Below the pieces are notes generated by a model that was not told where the DNA came from, did not search any database, and worked only from the letters and a program-made list of their open reading frames with translations. From positions 124,001-188,000 of the forward strand of contig JADLHZ010000012.1 in the NCBI GenBank assembly GCA_020848545.1: a DNA stretch of 64,000 nucleotides. Reading direction: 5' to 3'. The position numbers and the translations under genes are program-made. Below are positions 6,377 through 61,656 of this stretch, in pieces (position 1 is the stretch's first letter; each line of letters opens with the position of its first letter). Source of the stretch: Deltaproteobacteria bacterium (GTDB lineage: Bacteria > Myxococcota > JADLHZ01).

Positions 6377-6778
6377 TCAGGCGACCTTTTGTGGCAACGC
6401 ATGCCGGCGCACGACTGAGGAGAGGAAGGCTTTGAAGCTCGTGCGGTTGTACGGCTTGATCAGAAAGTCGTCGACGCCGATCGAGCGGCACTCCTCGACC
6501 TTGTAGCGGTTCAACGTGCCGGAGCACATCAAGATGCGCGCCTCTTGATCTTGGTGCCGCAAGAAGCGCGCGGTCGTGACGCCGTCGATGCCGGGCAGCA
6601 CGACGTCGAGCAGCACGAAGTCCGGCTTGTAGAGGCCGTAGAGGCGCAGCGCCTCCTCGCCGGTCACGGCCTCGGCCACGACTTCGACTTCGCTCGTGTG
6701 CAGGAGCGCGGAGAGGACGCGGCGGCTCACTTCCGAGTCATCGACGACGAGCGCGCGGAGCTTCCTGGGAGCATTCAT
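6377..6778 (-). CDS. Single-domain response regulator (CheY-like)
   Basis: Stand-alone receiver of 133 residues with all phosphorylation residues: the acidic pair in VVDDSEVSRR, phosphoacceptor Asp in LLDVVLPGIDG, Ser in MCSGT and Lys in LIKPYNR. There is no output domain, so it signals by protein contact like CheY. The start at 6778 is chosen because GGAGG (6785-6789 on this strand) lies 6 bases upstream and the receiver fold begins just after it; the open frame further upstream is low-complexity and overlaps the divergent acyltransferase. It is probably co-transcribed with the L,D-transpeptidase downstream. The cognate kinase is not identified; the hybrid CheA nearby is a candidate. Confidence 0.92.
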   Translation of the reverse strand: MNAPRKLRALVVDDSEVSRRVLSALLHTSEVEVVAEAVTGEEALRLYGLYKPDFVLLDVVLPGIDGVTTARFLRHQDQEARILMCSGTLNRYKVEECRSIGVDDFLIKPYNRTSFKAFLSSVVRRHALPQKVA

Positions 6779-6898
6779 GGTTGGCCTCCGCTCGCCTAGA
6801 AATTCAACCTGCGTGCCAACGGCCTCGCCTGGGATCATTCGCGAATTTCGCACAGGCAGCGGGTGCAATCGACCCCCAGGGTGCACTAGACCCGGCAC
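6779..6898. other. Divergent intergenic region, response regulator / acyltransferase
   Basis: This 120-base gap separates two divergently transcribed genes and must hold promoters for both. Apart from the GGAGG at 6785-6789 I see no motif I can name. Confidence 0.4.
6785..6789 (-). promoter_or_regulatory. Shine-Dalgarno site of the response regulator
   Basis: The minus strand reads GGAGG, six bases before the ATG at 6778. It fixes the start of the receiver protein against the longer open frame. Confidence 0.8.
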
Positions 6899-7507
6899 AT
6901 GCCTACCGATGCCGACTTCATCGCACAACACCAGCAGCGCCTGTCGTGGATGCCTTGGCTGTGGTTCACGCTGAAGGACAAGCACAAGACGTGGGCCGAG
7001 CCGTGGCAGCAAGAAATCCAAGATCGTCTGCGCGCGCTCGAGACGATTACGATCGGCGAGGGCTGCTTCATCGCGCCCGAAGCGCGGCTCTTCGGCGAAC
7101 CGGGCCGCGGCATCGTCATCGGCGACCGCGTGAGCATCGCCGCCGATGTGTTCGTGCACGGGCCGGTGACCCTCGGCGCCGACGTAAGCCTGAACGCACG
7201 CGTCAGCATCGACGGCGGATCGCGCGGCGTCACCGTCGGCGAAGGCACGCGCATCGCCACCGGCGCCGCGATCTATGCGTTCGACCACGGGCTCGCCGCC
7301 GCCGAGATGATCCGCACCCAAGGCGTGTCGTCGCGCGGCGTGCACATCGGCCGTGACGTGTGGATCGGCGCGAACGCCGGCATCACCGACGGCGTGACGA
7401 TCGGTGACGGCGCCGTCGTGGCGATGGGCGCCGTTGTCACGCGTGACGTGCTGCCCGGCGACATCGTCGGCGGCGTGCCGGCGAAGCGCATCGGACAAAG
7501 GCGCTAG
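6899..7507 (+). CDS. Hexapeptide-repeat acyltransferase
   Basis: Left-handed beta-helix acyltransferase of 202 residues, probably an acetyl-CoA-dependent O-acetyltransferase of the maltose/nodulation acetyltransferase group. Hexapeptide repeats run from about residue 50 to 195 (for example [19 protein letters not shown]). The family's acceptor-site loop is visible as IYAFDHG, whose His is the expected catalytic base. The C terminus [14 protein letters not shown] is typical of the family. The N-terminal 45 residues are Trp-rich and unlike the standard Mac domain, so the substrate cannot be named. It stands alone and converges with serS with a 9-base gap. Confidence 0.88.
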
Positions 7508-7516
7508 CGGCCGGGA

Positions 7517-9234
<1,718 letters not shown>

Positions 9235-51978: not shown

Positions 51979-52350
51979 ATGGCCGTCGATCATACGGGCA
52001 AACCGCCGCCGGGCGTGCCTCCGGTGCGCCACGAAGGCTCGGAGCGTGTGTCTGACACCCACCCGAAGCCGACTGCACCCCCGCCCGTCGTTCCGCCAGC
52101 GATCCCGGGCGACGGCCTCGAGGCCCGACCCACTCCGCTCGCGACTGGCGACAGCCCGAATCCCCTGGCTGGTGGCGTGGCTCCGCAACCGACGGCGAGC
52201 AGCTGGGACAAGGCGGTCGCCACCATGCTCAGCGGCGACCGAGCGACCATCAAAGCCGCCATCCGCACCCTCTGCCGCGCGCCCCACGAGGCCGGCGAGG
52301 TCCTGGCGGTGCGGAACTTCAACGCGCGCGTCGCCACCGCCCTCGGCTGA
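51979..52350 (+). CDS. Small Pro-rich protein of unknown function
   Basis: 123-residue soluble protein. The first 70 residues are Pro/Gly-rich and include VSDT coded by the palindromic word. The rest (SSWDKAVATMLSGDRATIKA and EVLAVRNFNARVATALG) is helical. There is no clear ribosome-binding site before ATG 51979 and no family I recognise. It lies in a spot rich in short repeats, so the frame may be fortuitous, though the codon pattern looks coding. Confidence 0.5.
   Translation: MAVDHTGKPPPGVPPVRHEGSERVSDTHPKPTAPPPVVPPAIPGDGLEARPTPLATGDSPNPLAGGVAPQPTASSWDKAVATMLSGDRATIKAAIRTLCRAPHEAGEVLAVRNFNARVATALG
52048..52058. repeat. Palindromic word GTGTCTGACAC
   Basis: Exact copy in the small Pro-rich gene, read as Val-Ser-Asp-Thr. 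Confidence 0.85.
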
Positions 52351-52408
52351 CCCCGTGGTCGTCGTCGGCCTGCGGGTGACCTGCGGACGGGCGGCCTGCG
52401 GGTGTCTG

Positions 52409-52442
52409 GCACCAGGGCTCTGGCAGCACCAGGGCTCTGGCA
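52409..52442 (+). repeat. Two tandem 17-bp units
   Basis: GCACCAGGGCTCTGGCA occurs twice in direct succession (52409-52425, 52426-52442). The unit overlaps a one-base variant of the dispersed palindrome (52402-52412, GTGTCTGGCAC). The site is intergenic between the Pro-rich protein and the ABC ATPase (229-base gap). Confidence 0.85.
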
Positions 52443-52579
52443 ATATGTCGGGACGAAGGCGCCAGCGAAGCCGTTGCCGCCGCCGACGTTCAAACCGCAG
52501 CGGAGCGCGCTATTTGCCGCATCGTGAGCGCAAAATATCGCTGGCTAAGCCGCCCCGCGCGGACTAGCTTCCCCCGCCT

Positions 52580-53305
52580 ATGACGGTCGCACTCGTCCGC
52601 ACGGAAGCGCTCCCGGCCCATGATCCAACGCTGCATGCTGCCTGGTTGAACGGCGTGAGTCGCGACTACGGCGACGGCGCCCGCAAGCAGGCGGTCCTGC
52701 GCGGCATCAACCTCATGCTCGAGAAAGGCGCGTTGCACGTGATCCTCGGCGCGTCGGGCTCCGGCAAGACGACCCTTCTGAACATCATCGGCGGCCTCGA
52801 TCGTCCGTCCAACGGCGAGGTGATCGTCGACGGGCTCTCGCTGCACGCGTTACCGTCTCGCGAGCTCGTCACCTTTCGTCAGAGCCGCACGGGATTCATC
52901 TTCCAATTTTACAATCTGATGCCCACGCTGACCTCGCTCGAAAATGTCGAGGTCGCGCTCGAGCACGCCGGTCTCAAAAAGGGCGAGCGCCGGGAACGCG
53001 CCGTGGAGATGCTGCGCGCGGTGGGGCTCGTCGAGCACCTCGGCAAGTTCCCCGGCGAGCTCTCGGGCGGCGAGCAGCAACGCGTCGCCATCGCCCGCGC
53101 CCTCGTCCGCAAGCCGGCGCTTCTCCTTTGCGATGAGCCGACCGGCAACCTCGACGCCGAGAGCGGGCGCATCGTCGTCGAGTTGATCGATCGCCTGCGT
53201 AAAGAGTGCGGCTCGACGGCGATCGTCGTCACCCACAACCCCGAGCTGTTCCCGCATGCCGACCGCGTTGTCCGCATCAAGAACGGCGTGAGCGAGCCGT
53301 CGTGA
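52580..53305 (+). CDS. ABC transporter ATPase of the LolD/MacB type
   Basis: 241-residue ATPase of the LolD/MacB/FtsE class. Walker A GASGSGKTT, Q-loop FIFQFYNLMPTL, signature LSGGEQQRVAIARAL, Walker B LLLCDEPTGNLD, H-loop VVTHN. It powers the FtsX-type permease encoded directly downstream, with which it overlaps (GTGA). Such pairs drive mechanotransmission across the membrane: lipoprotein release, toxin export or cell-wall hydrolase activation. Confidence 0.95.
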   Translation: MTVALVRTEALPAHDPTLHAAWLNGVSRDYGDGARKQAVLRGINLMLEKGALHVILGASGSGKTTLLNIIGGLDRPSNGEVIVDGLSLHALPSRELVTFRQSRTGFIFQFYNLMPTLTSLENVEVALEHAGLKKGERRERAVEMLRAVGLVEHLGKFPGELSGGEQQRVAIARALVRKPALLLCDEPTGNLDAESGRIVVELIDRLRKECGSTAIVVTHNPELFPHADRVVRIKNGVSEPS

Positions 53306-55695
53306 GCGCGCTGCTCGTCAAGAAAGCGCTGCGTGACTTCCGCCGCATGGGCTTGCGGGCTTGGCTCGTGTTCGCCGTCCTCGCTGCGGGGATCGCCGTC
53401 TATGCGGGCGGCTTCCTCGCGCAAGCGAGCGTCTTCCACACGCGCGACTATTATGAGAACGCCCTGGAGCTTGCCGATCTTCATGTGGGCTTCGCCGCCA
53501 GCGAAAGCGACGAGCTCCCGAAGTGGATGAACGAATCGCTCGACGGCGGCCGTGGCTTCGAGTCCGTGGGCGCCACCGCCGCGACGATGCGCTTCCTCGC
53601 GCCGAGCACCATCGAGCTCGCCGGACAGAAGCCGGTGATGAGCCTCGACGTGTTCTACGATCCCGCGTACCCGCTCACGGTAAACAAGCTCGAGATCCTC
53701 GACGGCCGCGCCCTGAGGTCCGACGAAACGGACAAGGTGCTGATCGAAAACTCCGCCGCGCGCATCCACGGGTTCAAGGTGGGCGACAAGCTCACGCTCG
53801 ATCCCTATTTGAACCCGCACGAAGTGACGATTGTCGGCATTGCCCGCACCGCCGAGTTTCTGCTCCCCACCGCGAATCCCGAAGTGCTGATCCCATCGAA
53901 GGGTTCGCTCGTCGTGCTGTTCCGGCCGTTGAGCAAGCTCGCCGAGACCTTCGGCAGTCCGATGTACAACTCGGCTGTCCTGCGTTTTTCCGGCGTCGGT
54001 GCGACCACGGCACAGAAGCAGCGCGTGGTCGACGCGAGCGACCCGCTGGTGCTGACCACGGTCGTCGCGCGCGACGAGGCGTACTCGCATCGCTTCCTCG
54101 ACGAGGATCTCAAAGCGTTCAGCATCTTCATCCCAGTGCTCAGCGGCATCTTCGCGCTGGTGACCTTCCTCGTGCTCTTGCTCTCGCTGAGCCGGCTGAT
54201 GTCCGAGCAGCAACGTGAGATCGCGGCGCTCCTCGCGATTGGCCACAGCGCATCGACCATCATTGCGAGCTACGTCGTTGCCGCGTTCGCGTACGCATCG
54301 GCCGCGGCGTTGCTCGGCACGGCGATGGCGCCCTTCTTCGGCGATTTCCTCGGGAACGCTTACGCTGGCGCCGTGGGCTTGCCGCCGGTCTTGCCGCGTT
54401 TCGTCGCGACGCCGGTGCTCGAAGGCGCGCTGTTCGGTATCGCGTGTACTCTCGTCGCGACGATTGGTCCGGCGTTGCGCGTGACTCGCTTGTCACCCGC
54501 CGCTGCGATGCGCCCGAACATCGCCGCTGGCTTCACGCGACGCTTCGCCGCGATCGACGCGCTCATCACGCGAACGACGCGCTCGACTGTCACGCGCTTC
54601 GGCCTGCGCAATCTCCTGCGCCGTCCTCGCCTCACGCTGAGCGTCGCGAGCCTGATTGCGTTCGCGATGGCGCTGAGTCTCGCCTTCAAGCTGAGCGAGC
54701 GCGCCTGGCAGCAGTTCGCGGTCGACGGCTTCGCGGCCGAAAAATGGGACGCTGTCGTCTCGTTCAAAGTGCCGCTGAAACCCGCCGACGCCGAGGTGAT
54801 GTACGGCACCGCCGGCGTCAAATCGGCGCACCCTTTCGTCAGCGGCTTCGGGGCGATTTGCCGCGGCGAGCTCTGCGTCGATCACCGCTTGGTCGGCGTC
54901 GACCCCGAAGACAATCTGCGCGGCTTCCCGTTCGCCGAAGGCGCAATGTTCAAGAGCAAAGACGACCTTGCGATCGTGCTGAACAAGAACTTCAACCACA
55001 CCGCGCCGTACGTTCTCGGCGAGGAAGTCGAGCTCAAGAACGGGAGCCGCAGCGTGCGCGTGAAGGTGGTCGGGCTCACCTCCGACATGACGATCGGCGT
55101 CGGCTACGTTCCGATGGCGATCGCCCGCCGCCTGCTCGCGCTCGACACAGAGATCACGGGCTTCCAGGCGGTGATCGAAGGCAAGCCGCCGCGCGAAGTA
55201 AAAAAAGCGCTCTTTGCCCACGAGATGGTCACTTATGTCTCGCTCAAGGTTGAAATGGAAGACGTCGTGCACGAGTACATGCAGGTCATCTGGGCGATCA
55301 TCCGGGGCGCGATGGCGATCTCGCTCGCCCTTGCCGTCTTGTTCATGCTCACCGGCGTATCGATGGCATTGCTCGAGCGCGAACACGAATACGCGACGCT
55401 GCGCAGCTTCGGCTACTCAGACGCCAGCATCGTACGGATGATCCTCGTCGAAGTGGCCGCCGAAGCGATCCTGGCGACGGCGATGTCGATCCCGCTCGCA
55501 ATGCTCCTCGCGTCGTACTTGCGCTACGAGATGGCGCGCGCGTGGTTCGACGTGCAGTTCTACTATCCACTCGCCGACTTCCTCTCGATCATCGTCCCGG
55601 CGTTGTGTGCGCTCCCGTTCGCGGCGCTGCCGTCGTTGATCCAGCTCTTGCGCCAATCGCCGGCGACGTTGTTGCGCGCGCGCGGCATCGGCTGA
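53302..55695 (+). CDS. FtsX/MacB-type ABC permease, two FtsX domains
   Basis: 797-residue permease with N-terminal helix, a large periplasmic domain, three helices (about 275-410, FIPVLSGIFALVTFLVLLLS), a second periplasmic domain and three more helices (about 665-790). It thus contains two FtsX units in one chain, as in DUF214/YbbP-like transporters, and can work as a single subunit with the ATPase. The GTG at 53302 overlaps the ATPase stop. The substrate is unknown. Confidence 0.92.
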   Translation: MSALLVKKALRDFRRMGLRAWLVFAVLAAGIAVYAGGFLAQASVFHTRDYYENALELADLHVGFAASESDELPKWMNESLDGGRGFESVGATAATMRFLAPSTIELAGQKPVMSLDVFYDPAYPLTVNKLEILDGRALRSDETDKVLIENSAARIHGFKVGDKLTLDPYLNPHEVTIVGIARTAEFLLPTANPEVLIPSKGSLVVLFRPLSKLAETFGSPMYNSAVLRFSGVGATTAQKQRVVDASDPLVLTTVVARDEAYSHRFLDEDLKAFSIFIPVLSGIFALVTFLVLLLSLSRLMSEQQREIAALLAIGHSASTIIASYVVAAFAYASAAALLGTAMAPFFGDFLGNAYAGAVGLPPVLPRFVATPVLEGALFGIACTLVATIGPALRVTRLSPAAAMRPNIAAGFTRRFAAIDALITRTTRSTVTRFGLRNLLRRPRLTLSVASLIAFAMALSLAFKLSERAWQQFAVDGFAAEKWDAVVSFKVPLKPADAEVMYGTAGVKSAHPFVSGFGAICRGELCVDHRLVGVDPEDNLRGFPFAEGAMFKSKDDLAIVLNKNFNHTAPYVLGEEVELKNGSRSVRVKVVGLTSDMTIGVGYVPMAIARRLLALDTEITGFQAVIEGKPPREVKKALFAHEMVTYVSLKVEMEDVVHEYMQVIWAIIRGAMAISLALAVLFMLTGVSMALLEREHEYATLRSFGYSDASIVRMILVEVAAEAILATAMSIPLAMLLASYLRYEMARAWFDVQFYYPLADFLSIIVPALCALPFAALPSLIQLLRQSPATLLRARGIG

Positions 55696-55699
55696 ACGC

Positions 55700-56854
55700 A
55701 TGCAGCGGCTGTCGTTCACGGTCTCGCACACGGCCACAGGATCGCACGCTCGCCGCGGCCGCATGATGCTCCGCCACGGACCAGTGGAGACGCCGGTGTT
55801 CATGCCGGTCGGCACACAAGGATCGGTGAAGGCGCTGAGCTCGGAGGACGTCGCGCACGAGCTCGACGCGCAGATCATCCTCGGCAACACCTATCATTTG
55901 TATCTGCGCCCGGGGCCCGAGCGCATGCAGAGGCTCGGCGGGCTGCACAAGTTCATGCGCTGGGATCGGAACATCCTGACGGATAGCGGCGGTTTTCAGG
56001 TGTTCTCGCTCGGGCAGGGAACCGCTGATCGCAAACCGCTGCTCGAGAAGCTGACCGAAGAAGGCGCGTTCTTTCGCTCGCACATCGATGGATCGCGCCA
56101 CACGCTCACGCCGGAGACCTCGATCGCCATGCAGGAAGCGATCGGCAGCGACATCATGATGGTGCTCGACGAGTGTCCGCCGTCGACCGCCCCGCGCGAG
56201 TACCAAGCGCAATCGATGGACCGAACGACGCGCTGGGCGGAGCGCTGCCTTGGCGCACGCACCGACGCGGGAGGCGCGTTGTTTGGGATCTTTCAAGGCG
56301 GGCTCGATCTCGAGCTGCGTCAGAAACACCTCGCTGCGTTGAGCGCGCTCCCGTTCGAGGGGCTGGCGATCGGCGGCCTCGCCGTCGGCGAGACGAAGGA
56401 AGACTTCTTGCGCACGCTGCGGCACGTGGCGCCGATGATGCCGGCGGATCGGCCGCGCTACTTGATGGGCGTCGGAACACCCGAGGACCTCGTGGAAGGC
56501 GTGCACGCGGGCGTCGACATGTTCGATTGCGTGATGCCGACGCGCAACGCCCGCAACGGCACGCTGTTCGTGAACGGCGGGAAGATCGTGATCAAGAACC
56601 AGGCGTACACCGACGACGAGGGGCCGATCGATCCGAGCTGCCGCTGCTCCACGTGCCGGACCTACTCGCGCGCGTACTTGCGACACCTGTTCATCGCCGA
56701 GGAGTTGTCGTTCCATCGCTTCGCGACGCTGCACAACCTGACGCACTACTTGGACTTGATGAGGCAGATGCGCACGGCGATCGAGGCCGGATCGTTTACG
56801 GCGTGGCGCGACGCGTTCTACGCAGGCCGCGCCGCCGCGTCTTCGACGAAGTAG
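55700..56854 (+). CDS. tgt: Queuine tRNA-ribosyltransferase
   Basis: 384-residue tRNA-guanine transglycosylase, inserting preQ1 into tRNA anticodons. The active site is LTDSGGFQVFSL (catalytic base Asp), the nucleophile lies in MFDCVMPTRNARNG and zinc is held by CRCSTC plus a later His (HLF). Length and motifs are normal. The last 37 bases overlap the convergent gene at 56818-57420. Confidence 0.97.
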   Translation: MQRLSFTVSHTATGSHARRGRMMLRHGPVETPVFMPVGTQGSVKALSSEDVAHELDAQIILGNTYHLYLRPGPERMQRLGGLHKFMRWDRNILTDSGGFQVFSLGQGTADRKPLLEKLTEEGAFFRSHIDGSRHTLTPETSIAMQEAIGSDIMMVLDECPPSTAPREYQAQSMDRTTRWAERCLGARTDAGGALFGIFQGGLDLELRQKHLAALSALPFEGLAIGGLAVGETKEDFLRTLRHVAPMMPADRPRYLMGVGTPEDLVEGVHAGVDMFDCVMPTRNARNGTLFVNGGKIVIKNQAYTDDEGPIDPSCRCSTCRTYSRAYLRHLFIAEELSFHRFATLHNLTHYLDLMRQMRTAIEAGSFTAWRDAFYAGRAAASSTK

Positions 56855-57420
56855 CGTCGCTCGGCTTCGTGCTTGTCGCGAACGTCGTCGGGAAGCGCGA
56901 GGTGAACGACGTCGCCTGCGAAGGTGCCGACGCTTGCCGGGATCGCGGCGAGGAACGCGAGCATCATCGTCAGAAGGCGCGCGATCAAAGCGAGGACGCC
57001 GAGGCCAACACCGAGGGCGTTCATCGCCAGGCTGTCGTCGTTGACGAGCTCGGCTGCTTCGTCCCAGAGCTTCATCGCGCCGAGCTGCATCAGGTTCGCG
57101 ATCATCTGTGGGTACGCGAGCAGAGCTTCGGCGGCGCCGGTGATGACCTGCGCCGCGCCGACGACGTGGCGGCCGCTGCGAAGATTATCGTAGCCGTCCG
57201 TGGCGTCGACGACGCCGAGCATCATGCGGCCGGCACCGAGATCGCGCAGTTCTTCGTCGATCGGCTTCTGTGGGACCTGGGCAGCCGGCGGCGCTTGCTG
57301 CGCGGGTGGCGGGGATCGACGCTGCCGAAGCGGGGGCGGCACTGGCGCATACTGCTGGTTGGCAAGGTGCGAACGCTGCGAAGCGGCGACCGTGAATCTC
57401 GCGACGGGGGGCAGAGCCAT
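56818..57420 (-). CDS. Membrane protein of unknown function
   Basis: 200-residue protein with a Pro/Gln-rich N-terminal half (residues 20-60) and two hydrophobic segments (about 75-110 weak; 135-180 strong, with LGVGLGVLALIARLLTMMLAFL). ATG 57420 is supported by GGAGG (57426-57430) five bases upstream. The 3' end overlaps tgt by 37 bases on the opposite strand. No family is recognised. Confidence 0.65.
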   Translation of the reverse strand: MALPPVARFTVAASQRSHLANQQYAPVPPPLRQRRSPPPAQQAPPAAQVPQKPIDEELRDLGAGRMMLGVVDATDGYDNLRSGRHVVGAAQVITGAAEALLAYPQMIANLMQLGAMKLWDEAAELVNDDSLAMNALGVGLGVLALIARLLTMMLAFLAAIPASVGTFAGDVVHLALPDDVRDKHEAERRYFVEDAAARPA

Positions 57421-57425
57421 GGCTT

Positions 57426-57430
57426 CCTCC
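57426..57430 (-). promoter_or_regulatory. Shine-Dalgarno site of the membrane protein
   Basis: GGAGG on the minus strand, five bases before the ATG at 57420; it selects that start over the longer upstream frame. Confidence 0.75.
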
Positions 57431-57563
57431 GCCTTTAGCTTCGGCGCTCGACTAAAGGCCGCCGTACGACAACGCGCAAACGCCGCCGCGCGTGACCGCT
57501 GTCGCACGGCACTTACGAAATCACTATGCGCAGCGCGGGCTTAGGATGCCGGGAGGATGTCGG

Positions 57564-57574
57564 GTGTCTGACAC
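57564..57574. repeat. Palindromic word GTGTCTGACAC
   Basis: Exact copy just beyond the cyclase stop codon (57578), outside any gene. Confidence 0.85.
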
Positions 57575-57577
57575 CGC

Positions 57578-59641
57578 TCATTTGGTCGTCATCTTGAACA
57601 CGCCGTCCCAGTTCGCTTCCGGAGGGTCGCTTTGGAACTCGACACAGCGTGCGGCGAAGGTCTTTGCCGGTCCGTCATTCGGGTCGAGTGTCAGACACCC
57701 GTCGAAGATCTTTTTCGCGTCGGCGAACTTCTGCGCGCGGTAGATGGCGAGGCCTTCAGCGAACATCGCGGCGACCTTGAGTGAAGTGTCTGACACCTGA
57801 CCGCGCTCCCCGAGCACCTCGAACACCCGGACCGGGATCGCCTTGCCCTTCACGCGCAACGAGTCGAGCTCGCGGACGTGGACCAATTGCTCAACGCCGA
57901 CAAGCGAGTCCTCGCTCACCATCAGGCGGGTGCCATACTCTTTGTTGGCGCCCTCGAGCCGCGACGCCAGGTTCACGGCGTCGCCGATGACGGTGTAATC
58001 CTGGCCGTCGCGAGAACCGATGTTCCCCACGACGACGTGGCCGCTGTTGACGCCGATGCGGCAGTTGATGACCGGCCGGCCTAGCGCAGCCCAACGCTTT
58101 TGCACGTCGTCGACCACGCGTAGATGCTCGATCGCTGAGAGCAACGCGCGAGCCCGATGATCCTCCTGCACGATGGGCGCGCCGAAGAAGCACATCACGC
58201 TGTCGCCGGCGAACTTGTCGAGCGTGCCGCCGCGCCGAACGATGGCTTGGCCCACTTCATCGAAGTACTCGTTGAGCAACGCCACGAGCTCGCTCGCCTT
58301 GCGTCCTTCGCTCAAGCTCGTGAAGCCGACGAGGTCGCTGAACAAGATGCTGAGCTCGCGATCTTCGCCGCCGAGCTGCAGCTTCTCCGGGTTCTTCAGC
58401 ATCTCCTCGACGACGGCCGGTGCCAGATACCTCTTGAACGTCGCTTTGATCTGATCGCGCTGCTTCAGACCCTCGGTCATCTCGTTGAACGAGTTCGCGA
58501 GCTCGCCGATCTCATCGCGTGAAGTGACTGGCACCTTCACCGAGAGGTCGCCCGTCCGCACCTGACGTACCGCCTTGTCGAGAGAAGACAAAGGGTGGGT
58601 CAGTCGGCCCGACATTTGTGAGCCGACAATGAGGCTCAGGATCAGCGCCGCGAGCGCCACGATGAGCAGCGCCGTGCGCAAGCGTTGGTTGAACGGGCCG
58701 AGCTCGCTCTCGAGCGAACGCAAGAGGTACGCTTCGCCGATCGAACGTCCCGCGACGAGCCCAGGGATCGTCGCCGCGACGCCGAGGTACGACTCGCCGT
58801 AGAGCTTGTGATCCTGCATCGCTTTCGCCTGCGTCCGCCCCTTCGCCGCTTCGATGAGCAGCGCGGTGCGCACCGGGTCGTCACCCACGCGCGCGAGAAA
58901 CGCGTCGCCGGTGCGCAAAACGACGTCGGCGTTCGACAACGCTTCGAGCTCGGGCAAGAGGCCTTGGCTCAGCGCTTCGCCCACGAAAACGACACCGACG
59001 ACCCCCTTTGCGGTCGCGATCTCGCGGCCCATGACGAGGTAGAGCTCGTCGTCCCCGCCCGCCGGAATCAGGCCGAGCTGCGTGAGCGACGTGTCCTTGG
59101 CCGGCCAAATCTCCGCCGCTTTGTGCTCTTTCAGGGTGCGCGCCACTAAGGGAACGTTCTTGACCGAGCCGCCGTAACGCGCGCGATCGCCCTTCGAGAA
59201 GATCAGCGTGCCTTCCGCGTTGACGATCGCAACGACGGGATAACGTTCTTGAAACAGCGGCGTCTCGGCGCTGAAGAACACGCCGTGCGCTTTGACGATC
59301 GGGTTGTCGTCGCCCTCCGCAGCGTCCAAGCCGTTGTCGCTCTGCGGATCGTCGAGCCCCATGTCCGCGTCGCGCTGAATCGTGTTGCCGAGGTACGAGC
59401 GAAAGAGCGCGTCGCTCAACGCCGCCGCGGCAACGTCGTCGAAGCCGGTGAGTCGCGAGGTGATCGAGCGCTCGAGCTGACCCGCGGTGCGGGCGAAGTC
59501 GCGATCGATCTTCTCGCGCGCGGCGAGCGTCGCCGAGTACTGCGCCGCCATCACGGCGCCGCCCACGAGCGTGAGACTCAGGAGCAAGAACGCGAGATCA
59601 AGCTTGACCCGAAACGACAGGCCCTTCTTCCGTTCGGCCAA
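57578..59641 (-). CDS. Class III nucleotide cyclase with extracellular sensor and HAMP
   Basis: 687-residue membrane receptor: TM1 (about 13-35), a long extracytoplasmic Cache-type sensor (36-320), TM2 (about 323-345), HAMP (345-397), class III cyclase (about 430-605) and a short TPR-like tail. Metal-binding Asp residues lie in SILFSDLVGFTSLSEG and KFAGDSVMCFFGAP, and the substrate/transition-state site in DYTVIGDAVNLASRLEGA. All catalytic residues are present, so it should make cAMP (or cGMP). Two palindromic words lie in its 3' part (VSDT, CLTL). It is 16 bases after the cupredoxin gene. Confidence 0.92.
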   Translation of the reverse strand: MAERKKGLSFRVKLDLAFLLLSLTLVGGAVMAAQYSATLAAREKIDRDFARTAGQLERSITSRLTGFDDVAAAALSDALFRSYLGNTIQRDADMGLDDPQSDNGLDAAEGDDNPIVKAHGVFFSAETPLFQERYPVVAIVNAEGTLIFSKGDRARYGGSVKNVPLVARTLKEHKAAEIWPAKDTSLTQLGLIPAGGDDELYLVMGREIATAKGVVGVVFVGEALSQGLLPELEALSNADVVLRTGDAFLARVGDDPVRTALLIEAAKGRTQAKAMQDHKLYGESYLGVAATIPGLVAGRSIGEAYLLRSLESELGPFNQRLRTALLIVALAALILSLIVGSQMSGRLTHPLSSLDKAVRQVRTGDLSVKVPVTSRDEIGELANSFNEMTEGLKQRDQIKATFKRYLAPAVVEEMLKNPEKLQLGGEDRELSILFSDLVGFTSLSEGRKASELVALLNEYFDEVGQAIVRRGGTLDKFAGDSVMCFFGAPIVQEDHRARALLSAIEHLRVVDDVQKRWAALGRPVINCRIGVNSGHVVVGNIGSRDGQDYTVIGDAVNLASRLEGANKEYGTRLMVSEDSLVGVEQLVHVRELDSLRVKGKAIPVRVFEVLGERGQVSDTSLKVAAMFAEGLAIYRAQKFADAKKIFDGCLTLDPNDGPAKTFAARCVEFQSDPPEANWDGVFKMTTK
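57688..57698. repeat. Palindromic word GTGTCAGACAC
   Basis: Exact copy in the cyclase TPR-like tail, read in the other frame as Cys-Leu-Thr-Leu. Confidence 0.85.
57786..57796. repeat. Palindromic word GTGTCTGACAC
   Basis: Exact copy in the cyclase gene after the catalytic domain, read as Val-Ser-Asp-Thr. Confidence 0.85.
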
Positions 59642-59657
59642 CGCGCGCTCCTCGGGC

Positions 59658-60329
59658 TCAGTACTTGGCGCCGCCCTTGTAGTCTTTGCCGTACTTATCT
59701 TTGTGCTTGTCTGGCACCTTGTCCTGCACGACTTCCCAATCGACCTTGAGCGGCTCGCCGGCAGTGACGGTGACCGGCTTCGACTGAACGTCCGACCGCT
59801 TGCTCCACGCGAACATCTTATAGTCGCCGGGCGGCACGTTCTGGATGCGATAGCGGCCGTCTTTGTCGGCGATCGCGAACGCCCGGTTCGGCAGCACGAG
59901 CACGGTACCGACCATCTCGGGGTGGATGTTGCAGTACACGTCGATGACGCCGGTCTTCGTGAAGGTGATCGCCTTCGTGTCCGGCTTCTTCGTCATTCCG
60001 AGATCGAACGCACGTGCCTTCGAAATCGAAAACACGTTGTGCCAAATCGTATCCTCGTTGGCGAAGTCGACGGTCTGACCGACCGTAATCGGCATGACGT
60101 CCGGCACGAACTTCTTGTCTCGCTGCGTGATCCGCGCGCTCGCCTTGTCCGGCTCCTCGGTGAACCCCGTGAGATACAGGACAACCGGCGCCGCCTCCGC
60201 CGTCGTCACGCCCCTCACTTTGACGATGCCGTTGACCGCGCCGTTCTTCTCGGCTGCACGCGCCGGTGTCAGACACACGACGAGCGGTGTCAGACACACG
60301 ACGAGGGACGAGAGCGTGCCGCGGATCAT
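59658..60329 (-). CDS. Cupredoxin-like secreted protein (methylamine-utilisation type)
   Basis: 223-residue exported protein with a cupredoxin fold (about 75-165): VDFANEDTIWHNVFSIS, FDLG and VYCNIHPEMVGTVLVL carry the His, Cys, His and Met positions of a type-1 copper site. A carboxypeptidase-regulatory-like beta domain follows (GRYRIQNVPPGDYKMFAW). The N-terminal signal MIRGTLSSLVVCLTPLVVCL contains a perfect seven-residue duplication coded by two tandem 21-bp units. The ATG at 60329 gives the signal peptide. It sits between a barrel and a cyclase receptor, so it may be a copper or redox sensing partner. Confidence 0.82.
   Translation of the reverse strand: MIRGTLSSLVVCLTPLVVCLTPARAAEKNGAVNGIVKVRGVTTAEAAPVVLYLTGFTEEPDKASARITQRDKKFVPDVMPITVGQTVDFANEDTIWHNVFSISKARAFDLGMTKKPDTKAITFTKTGVIDVYCNIHPEMVGTVLVLPNRAFAIADKDGRYRIQNVPPGDYKMFAWSKRSDVQSKPVTVTAGEPLKVDWEVVQDKVPDKHKDKYGKDYKGGAKY
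60264..60305 (-). repeat. Tandem 21-bp duplication in a signal peptide
   Basis: Two adjacent identical 21-bp units (60264-60284, 60285-60305), each holding one exact copy of GTGTCAGACAC followed by ACGACGAG. They code LVVCLTP twice in the signal peptide of the cupredoxin protein. Confidence 0.9.
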
Positions 60330-60348
60330 GTACTGACTTGTCGCCGCA

Positions 60349-61143
60349 TCAGATGGCGATCGCAAACAATAATCTCGGCATGATGCGCGGCGACGCCGGG
60401 GTGAGCCCAAGCAAGGCGCCGACCGTGGCCCACACGCGGCCGCGGCTGAAGCCGACCGAGGGCCCGGCAAAGAAGTTGTAGACGTTCTCGCCAGTCACCG
60501 GGCGCACGGTCGACGGCGCGCCGCCGAAGTTGAGCTCGTGATAGTACTCCGCGGTCAGCCGCCACTCGTCGGCGATCTTGTGCGTGTAGGCGAGCCCCAC
60601 CGTCTGCCGAAACGCCATCGTGCCGACGAAGTGCAGCGCCAGAAGCCCGCCGACGTCGAGTGAACCGTGTGATCCCTTGATGTCGCCGATCGACGTGACG
60701 ACGTTCAGCTGAACCCACGGCGTAAACTGCATCATTTGGGCGTTGTCGGGGTGGCTGAAGTTCTGCTGGTACGCGATGCGAATCAGGTTGCGAACGAGGC
60801 GCTCTTCGTCGTTGACGTCATAGGCGCGGATACGCATCTCGGCAGTGAAGTCGGCGAGGCGGGTGCCTGCGGGGCTGACGACGACCTCCCACGGGAACGC
60901 GATCTCGATGTGATCGGTGAGCCCGTAGATCGGCGAGAACCAAATCCAGCCAGCGCCCGGCCCGTTTTCGGTGAGGATGCGGCCCCACAGCCACTGTTCG
61001 ATCTCGACGTCGCCTTTGTTGAGCGCCTCAGTGTCCCACGTGAAGAGAAACGCGCGTCGGCCCGCGTGCGCAGCGGCTGGTGTCAGACACACGACGGCGA
61101 GAACGAGGAGGGCGAGCCACGAGACGGATCTTCGAGCGTGCAT
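60349..61143 (-). CDS. Outer-membrane beta-barrel protein
   Basis: 264-residue protein with signal peptide (MHARRSVSWLALLVLAVVCLTPAAAHA) and alternating hydrophobic/aromatic strands ending in a hydrophobic C terminus, as in outer-membrane barrels of about 10-12 strands. Examples: QWLWGRILTENGPGAGWIWF and EWRLTAEYYHELNFGG. GAGGAGG (61152-61158) precedes the ATG. It is the first gene of the operon with the cupredoxin and cyclase genes (19-base gap). Its function is unknown. Confidence 0.82.
   Translation of the reverse strand: MHARRSVSWLALLVLAVVCLTPAAAHAGRRAFLFTWDTEALNKGDVEIEQWLWGRILTENGPGAGWIWFSPIYGLTDHIEIAFPWEVVVSPAGTRLADFTAEMRIRAYDVNDEERLVRNLIRIAYQQNFSHPDNAQMMQFTPWVQLNVVTSIGDIKGSHGSLDVGGLLALHFVGTMAFRQTVGLAYTHKIADEWRLTAEYYHELNFGGAPSTVRPVTGENVYNFFAGPSVGFSRGRVWATVGALLGLTPASPRIMPRLLFAIAI
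61080..61090. repeat. Palindromic word GTGTCAGACAC
   Basis: Exact copy in the signal peptide of the barrel protein, Cys-Leu-Thr-Pro; the flank ACGACG is shared with the two copies at 60266 and 60287. Confidence 0.85.
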
Positions 61144-61151
61144 GCAGCGGG

Positions 61152-61158
61152 CCTCCTC
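61152..61158 (-). promoter_or_regulatory. Strong Shine-Dalgarno site of the barrel gene
   Basis: GAGGAGG on the minus strand, eight bases before the ATG at 61143; marks the start of the operon's first gene. Confidence 0.8.
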
Positions 61159-61212
61159 AGGGTGAGAGCGTTATAGGCAGCGGCGGCAGATCGTTTCAAC
61201 GTTGCGACAAGG

Positions 61213-61656
61213 TCATAGCGCCGGCGCCGTGAAGCGCGGCCAGCGCAGCCGCGGCCAATCGCCGCAGGCCGCGAGGTATTGATCGGTGAGTGCCAGACAC
61301 TCGCGCGGCGCCATGACGCGCAAGTAGGTCTCCGCGAGCGCGAGCACTTTGGCCCGATCACACGGTTCCTTCTTCACTTCGGCGGCGAGATCGAGCACCG
61401 CGAACGTCTCGGCGCCGTAGCGAAACGGGTTGCCGTAGAGCGCGTAGCCGAGGACGAGTGTCAGACACACGCTCGCGGCGAGGACGCCGAGAACGACCCG
61501 GCGACGTAGCACCTTTCTGCCTATCGTCGCTGAGCATTCTGGGCAGTAGTCGTGCGAGCCGTGCAGCTTCAAGCACACGACACAGATCGGCCGCATGCAG
61601 TCGAAGCAGTTCGACGCCTTCGCCTTCGCGGGATGCGCGAAGCAGCCTTCGTCCAT
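61213..61656 (-). CDS. B-box-like zinc protein with one TM helix
   Basis: 147-residue protein. The N terminus (about 5-42) has Cys and His spaced as in B-box zinc fingers: CFAHPAKAKASNCFDCMRPI, then CVVCLKLHGSHDYCPEC. One membrane helix follows (about 53-72, VVLGVLAASVCLTLVLGYAL), and a short extracytoplasmic domain. Two palindromic words are inside the gene (CLTL in the helix, ECLALTD near the end). The function is unknown; it resembles short B-box membrane proteins seen in Myxococcota. Confidence 0.75.
   Translation of the reverse strand: MDEGCFAHPAKAKASNCFDCMRPICVVCLKLHGSHDYCPECSATIGRKVLRRRVVLGVLAASVCLTLVLGYALYGNPFRYGAETFAVLDLAAEVKKEPCDRAKVLALAETYLRVMAPRECLALTDQYLAACGDWPRLRWPRFTAPAL
61291..61301. 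repeat. Variant word GTGCCAGACAC
   Basis: One-change variant near the end of the B-box gene, read as Cys-Leu-Ala-Leu. Confidence 0.75.
61458..61468. repeat. Palindromic word GTGTCAGACAC
   Basis: Exact copy in the membrane helix of the B-box gene, read as Cys-Leu-Thr-Leu. Confidence 0.85.

Follow-up and report, generated by a model that had tools for sequence, protein, structure and literature searches.

Several bacterial membrane receptors operate together with a dedicated exported partner. In the LuxP/LuxQ and TorT/TorS pairs the gene of an exported protein is linked to that of the membrane receptor, a histidine kinase, and the partner presumably loads the signal and docks. A related arrangement is that of PrrC/SenC with PrrBA or RegBA, where a periplasmic copper protein of the Sco fold informs a membrane sensor of the redox state, the source being the cbb3 oxidase and the output again a histidine kinase. 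Where a bacterial Ser/Thr kinase, phosphatase or class III cyclase carries an extracytoplasmic sensor, its input is to our knowledge in most cases not known. The present analysis deals with a three-gene locus, hereafter the trio, of the Deltaproteobacteria bacterium assembly GCA_020848545.1 (GTDB lineage Myxococcota), which lies in a window of 64,000 nucleotides, this being the whole stretch of DNA analysed (contig JADLHZ010000012.1, positions 124,001 to 188,000). The trio encodes an outer-membrane beta-barrel protein, an exported cupredoxin and a membrane receptor with a class III cyclase domain, and probably forms a copper- or redox-related sensing device.

By analogy, the trio would work most like the receptors that have a dedicated periplasmic partner, and the conserved partner/receptor linkage by which such systems are recognized is also found here. 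It differs from LuxP/LuxQ and TorT/TorS in that the putative partner is a blue-copper protein, that a barrel is included, and that the output is a cyclase, a Ser/Thr kinase or a phosphatase instead of a histidine kinase. With PrrC/SenC it would share a periplasmic copper protein reporting to a membrane sensor, and it departs from that system in the fold of this protein, the output, the signal source and the presence of the barrel. Among cyclases, Myxococcus xanthus CyaA is reportedly isolated beside mokA and is said to be larger than the window cyclase; we know of no cupredoxin or barrel partner described for it. As cited in PMC7643160, CyaA and CyaB of M. xanthus are osmosensing receptor class III adenylyl cyclases and, compared by description only, they resemble the trio cyclase in being transmembrane (TM) receptors that join a sensor to a class III catalytic domain. 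The copper two-component sensors CusS and CorS (PMC10100754, PMC3707914) have in common with the trio a copper-related sensing in the envelope, but there the histidine kinase itself senses the metal, with neither a cupredoxin partner nor a cyclase. A literature search of open-access papers, subscription papers being outside its scope, gave no account of a module of this kind, in line with the initial annotation of the locus, which knew of no described system with this set of genes.

The trio occupies window positions 57578-61143 on the minus strand and is transcribed in the order barrel, cupredoxin, receptor cyclase, with intergenic gaps of 19 bp (barrel/cupredoxin) and 16 bp (cupredoxin/cyclase). 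The gene set proposed by the initial annotation, that is, a barrel, an exported cupredoxin and a membrane cyclase with an extracytoplasmic sensor, was recovered entirely. At many of the homologous loci the reading frame of the barrel even overlaps that of the cupredoxin, by ~16 nt.

Functional linkage of barrel, cupredoxin and receptor is strongly supported by a neighbourhood analysis, which had been set beforehand as the refuting test and in which the three genes were found to co-occur. The comparison set comprised 195 searchable genomes of the same phylum (apparently Myxococcota), and all comparisons were made at phylum distance, class and order being represented by the window's own genome alone. 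A sensor profile, built from 12 sequences with those of two kinase-type loci (L111 and L112) among them, retrieved 21 sequences from 20 genomes at E<1e-19, and 19 of these strong homologues adjoin both a cupredoxin and a barrel on one contig. In one further genome (G140) the sensor sits on a separate contig and the barrel-cupredoxin pair reaches a contig end, which leaves as the sole true exception a GGDEF paralogue of the window's own genome (L014). Moreover, the cyclase homologues spanning the sensor at E<1e-80 adjoin a cupredoxin, and the order barrel-cupredoxin-cyclase recurs in ten genomes beyond the window (L100-L108, L110), according to gene calls made with a codon-bias caller in the fetched GC-rich loci. 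The flanking genes mostly differ between genera and are shared chiefly among close kin; the trio spans genera and families, being carried by several genomes of genus g51 (family f13), and the window and L110 loci have one weak flanking homologue in common. In the window, the trio is preceded on the same strand by two small genes of unassigned function and a glutamyl-tRNA synthetase gene. The L014 paralogue (contig C12, 10.7 kb) presents the sensor fused to HAMP-GGDEF, is preceded by a response regulator and has no adjacent cupredoxin.

The linkage extends to more than one output. The initial annotation had placed the system upstream of nucleotide synthesis; the window cyclase is predicted to be ATP-specific, but as a general description cAMP output is too narrow, the same barrel-cupredoxin-sensor set driving Ser/Thr kinases elsewhere. 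Adenylyl cyclase is the output in 16 trio loci, and other loci have a Ser/Thr kinase in its place, the sensor then lying at the opposite end of the protein. The third gene of L111 and L112 encodes such a receptor, composed of an N-terminal kinase, a TM segment and a C-terminal sensor of the trio type, which matches the sensor profile at E 3e-102 and 1e-97, respectively (the profile includes both sequences); the two are also retrieved, at E 3e-13 and 2e-11, by the window cyclase sensor alone, independently of the profile. Ten further Kofleriaceae-type loci have the barrel-cupredoxin pair no more than three genes away from a zf-HC2/kinase receptor, which in L020 is located upstream (kinase-barrel-cupredoxin), and the C-termini of these ten receptors align with the cyclase sensor over 293 columns in a profile-profile comparison (probability 99.3%, E 4e-20). 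Still another family (L147) shows the order cupredoxin-receptor kinase-barrel, its receptor having a sensor-HAMP-kinase architecture with a weak match to the sensor profile. More distant cupredoxins lie beside dCache_3-HAMP-SpoIIE receptors, together with outer-membrane proteins or multihaem cytochromes (L036, L042, L043), or beside dCache_3-HAMP-kinases in two loci of two gammaproteobacteria (L044, L046). Related cupredoxins therefore accompany a third output type, the dCache-HAMP-SpoIIE phosphatases. The linkage thus persists in several gene orders and with outputs that differ and may be attached to either end of the sensor, as would be expected of a shared input module, and the cupredoxin therefore appears to be the partner of the sensor.

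Two additional arrangements were observed among the fetched loci. In L021, a Kofleriaceae-type locus, an antisense gene (6667-7539) with a sigma-70 region 4-like domain is placed between the cupredoxin and the receptor kinase, and antisense genes of similar size are present in L025, L027 and L031. Loci L116, L119-L126, L131, L134 and L140 mostly carry genes for a receptor-like Ser/Thr kinase, a secreted protein of ~380 amino acids, a BBP2-type porin and a cupredoxin of ~330 amino acids, a four-gene cluster conserved across several families.

The window cupredoxin (59658..60329, minus strand, 223 amino acids) starts with the ATG at 60329, an alternative longer frame to 60470 being one that would overlap the barrel gene, and carries a predicted signal peptide. 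It scores 23.8 bits against Pfam Copper-bind (cut-off 21.2) and slightly below the cut-off of Cupredoxin_1, and a profile search of the PDB leads to amicyanin and plastocyanin chains. As judged from its sequence it is a type-1 (blue) copper protein with all four His-Cys-His-Met ligands (59913..60041), namely H97 (60039-60041), C133 (59931-59933), H136 (59922-59924) and M139 (59913-59915). The likely complete copper site read by the initial annotation is thus confirmed at the level of residues, the four ligands being invariant in an alignment of 23 cupredoxin sequences, and all 87 homologous loci scored have the CxxHxxM motif. The protein resembles the amicyanin/plastocyanin-type cupredoxins, which often bear the label "methylamine utilization protein", in fold and in the CxxHxxM copper loop; it differs from amicyanin in having two domains, in being linked to a receptor and in falling far under the amicyanin equivalog TIGR02657 (33.7 of 110.2 bits). 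A second cupredoxin of the same genome (L010, contig C31, 79.1 kb), 38% identical, is divergent to a CxxCH-motif gene that by eye resembles cytochrome c peroxidase.

The second, C-terminal domain is similar to fn3_3/CarboxypepD_reg of Pfam, that is, carboxypeptidase-regulatory-like. A C-terminal motif of the protein, H-x-x-K-x-G-x-x-Y, is also invariant among the 23 relatives. The Ig-like domain and the motif are what could be expected if the copper site were incidental, the cupredoxin/CarboxypepD-like protein being a ligand-binding or scaffold adaptor that joins barrel and receptor in the sensing of envelope state. Against it, the four ligands do not vary even among receptor-linked members that have diverged strongly, a pattern suggestive of selection for the metal site, and we consider this explanation very unlikely.

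The receptor cyclase (57578..59641, minus strand, 687 amino acids) starts at a TTG codon preceded by GAGGAG. Its predicted topology comprises a TM helix (residues ~8-35), an extracytoplasmic domain (~34-312; 58706..59542) and a second TM segment (319-345), followed by a HAMP linker (343-393; 58463..58615; Pfam HAMP, 54.7 bits), a class III catalytic domain (429-600; 57842..58357; Pfam Guanylate_cyc, 71.3 bits, cut-off 21.9) and TPR-like C-terminal helices (~618-671; 57629..57790), these last being helical in the model and sub-threshold for TPR_2. All catalytic residues are present, including the metal-binding D436 and D480, the adenine-specifying K476 and D554, and the transition-state N557 and R561. 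Since Lys476 and Asp554 are present, the enzyme is predicted to be ATP-specific, an adenylyl rather than a guanylyl cyclase. In L026, L039 and L041, relatives with no barrel, the adenine-specifying Lys is replaced by Glu or Gln, and the product may differ.

The sensor of the window protein has no Cys, three His and no haem motif. In the AlphaFold2 model of the cyclase (pLDDT 79.3) it displays a double-Cache-like order of elements, and profile-profile comparison with hhalign relates the trio sensor to receptors carrying dCache_3, a broad family, with a probability of 99.6% (E 6e-25). The window protein itself gave no dCache_3 or CHASE4 match in Pfam, and these matches are sub-threshold in the orthologues L039 and L041. 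When the full receptor was searched with Foldseek, CyaB, CyaC and Cya2 were retrieved, and the matches listed were solely cyclase proteins, for which reason the assignment of the sensor fold is based on profiles and secondary structure. Taken in this way, the window sensor looks double-Cache-like and related to dCache_3.

The product of the first gene (60349..61143, minus strand, 264 amino acids) has a signal peptide terminating in AHA and is, according to its AlphaFold2 model (~12 amphipathic strands, pLDDT 82.3), an outer-membrane beta-barrel of 12 strands; its family alignment includes 22 sequences. It has no Pfam family above cut-off (best DUF6662, 14.5 of 27 bits) and no NCBIfam match, and the Foldseek matches of the model are outer-membrane channels only, namely FapF, the COG4313 channel, NanC, OmpG and, weakly, PcoB (rank 44, E 7e-4, TMt 0.62, 10% identity), while a search of the PDB by sequence gave no match. 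Together with the complete blue copper site, the match to PcoB is what a copper-handling operon would predict, in which a PcoB-like barrel moves copper through the outer membrane for storage or oxidation by the cupredoxin, and copper ions are sensed by the receptor directly, with an adjustment of cAMP, the cupredoxin handling cargo and not being a signal partner. Nevertheless, PcoB comes well down a list of generic barrels. In addition, the window shows no gene for a copper ATPase, a CopZ-like protein or a multicopper oxidase adjoining the trio, the sensor offers no Cys and just the three His, and at other loci the barrel is replaced by unrelated BBP2-type porins or by no porin at all. Taken together, these observations make the copper-handling operon unlikely.

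The explanation that we hold to be slightly on the probable side is that of a trans-envelope receptor, in which control of the receptor, and through it of cAMP, lies with the barrel and the periplasmic copper protein. In this model the barrel would let in or position the stimulus, which could be copper, a redox-active compound or another small ligand; alternatively, it may anchor the complex. The periplasmic blue-copper protein would hold the state of the stimulus as copper occupancy or as its Cu(I)/Cu(II) state, this being the natural variable because the copper site is complete, and would dock on the receptor's double-Cache-like sensor. This contact would shift the TM and HAMP helices, switching the class III catalytic dimer and thereby setting the cAMP level, and the same front end of barrel, cupredoxin and sensor would act on a Ser/Thr kinase in related lineages. 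The computational results establish the gene order, the classes of the proteins, the intactness of the copper and cyclase sites, the conservation of the linkage and the exchange of outputs on a homologous sensor; we infer from them that the cupredoxin docks, what the stimulus is and in which direction the response goes, what the barrel does, and that copper or its redox state is the signal. More tentatively, and at a probability somewhat short of even, the trio may represent a general class of receptors, in which a blue-copper protein fed or positioned by a barrel is the obligate input of Cache receptors whose cyclase, Ser/Thr kinase and PP2C-type phosphatase outputs have been exchanged in evolution.

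Several points weigh against this model. The window sensor is just 22-29% identical to the rest of its family, and some cupredoxin-cyclase pairs come without a barrel (L026, L039, L041, L149), which means that the barrel is not indispensable. Electron transfer from the cupredoxin to the sensor is unlikely, as the window sensor and most of its orthologues have no Cys and the sensor carries no haem motif; the same lack of Cys makes docking the likelier mode of action. A small ligand is usually bound by the Cache-type sensor itself. Finally, the cupredoxins of a sister clade resemble ordinary electron carriers, so that the receptor could monitor respiratory function without contact.

In a cupredoxin tree of 86 sequences, most receptor-linked cupredoxins split, with 93/83 support, from this sister clade, which is found beside Qrc/alternative-complex-III-like complexes, and the split speaks for the proposed trans-envelope receptor; the window protein falls with the barrel-linked clade (90/88). 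Mapping of genomic context on the tree required 20 changes against 48.5 in shuffles, some of the labels reading "none" merely because a contig ends, meaning that context is strongly clustered yet repeatedly changing. In L122, L128, L130, L133, L139, L145, L146 and other loci, a separate cupredoxin clade lies directly 5' of a pentahaem cytochrome gene, after which come genes for a fused molybdopterin-like/FeS protein and an NrfD-like protein, as in complexes of the Qrc/alternative complex III kind.

A further explanation gives the receptor a bystander role: the cupredoxin would be a periplasmic electron carrier, the barrel a substrate porin, and the Cache receptor would sense a small molecule of the pathway or the proton motive state without contact. 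Such a view draws on the multihaem cytochrome and Qrc/alternative-complex-III-like genes adjoining the sister clade, on the multihaem cytochromes of some receptor operons (L036, L043) and on ligand binding being the normal behaviour of Cache domains. However, no oxidoreductase able to use the carrier recurs in trio loci, and the linkage is to a receptor, with several outputs and orders, and not to any metabolic gene. We regard the bystander role as doubtful, if still deserving of appreciable weight.

The initial annotation had also associated the trio with a Crp-like regulator at 13.3 kb of the window. The gene is present (cNMP_binding, 95 bits), but its tie to the trio was not sustained: the genome has 43 cNMP-binding matches and 12 class III cyclase domains, which renders proximity uninformative and leaves the gene unsupported as a dedicated effector. 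Elsewhere in the same genome (L012, contig C36, 88.8 kb) a class III cyclase gene is directly followed by that of a cNMP-binding protein, a better candidate for a cyclase-effector pair than the one in the window.

The region is also rich in the palindrome GTGTCWGACAC, with 35 copies in the 8 Mb genome (two for the reversed control), 20 of which are within 28.6 kb (window 52048-61468 and contig C12 to 204684, L238). Five copies fall within the trio genes and encode VCLTP in the signal peptides of the barrel and the cupredoxin. An origin of these palindromes as RAYT/REP elements was not supported, no Y1_Tnp match (RAYT gene) being found on the contig.

In summary, an operon-encoded copper protein recurs as candidate input with all three output types, and what these receptors sense thereby becomes testable. 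If the proposed trans-envelope receptor is correct, blue-copper proteins would act in signalling as well as in electron transfer, and myxobacterial cAMP would gain a defined environmental cue.

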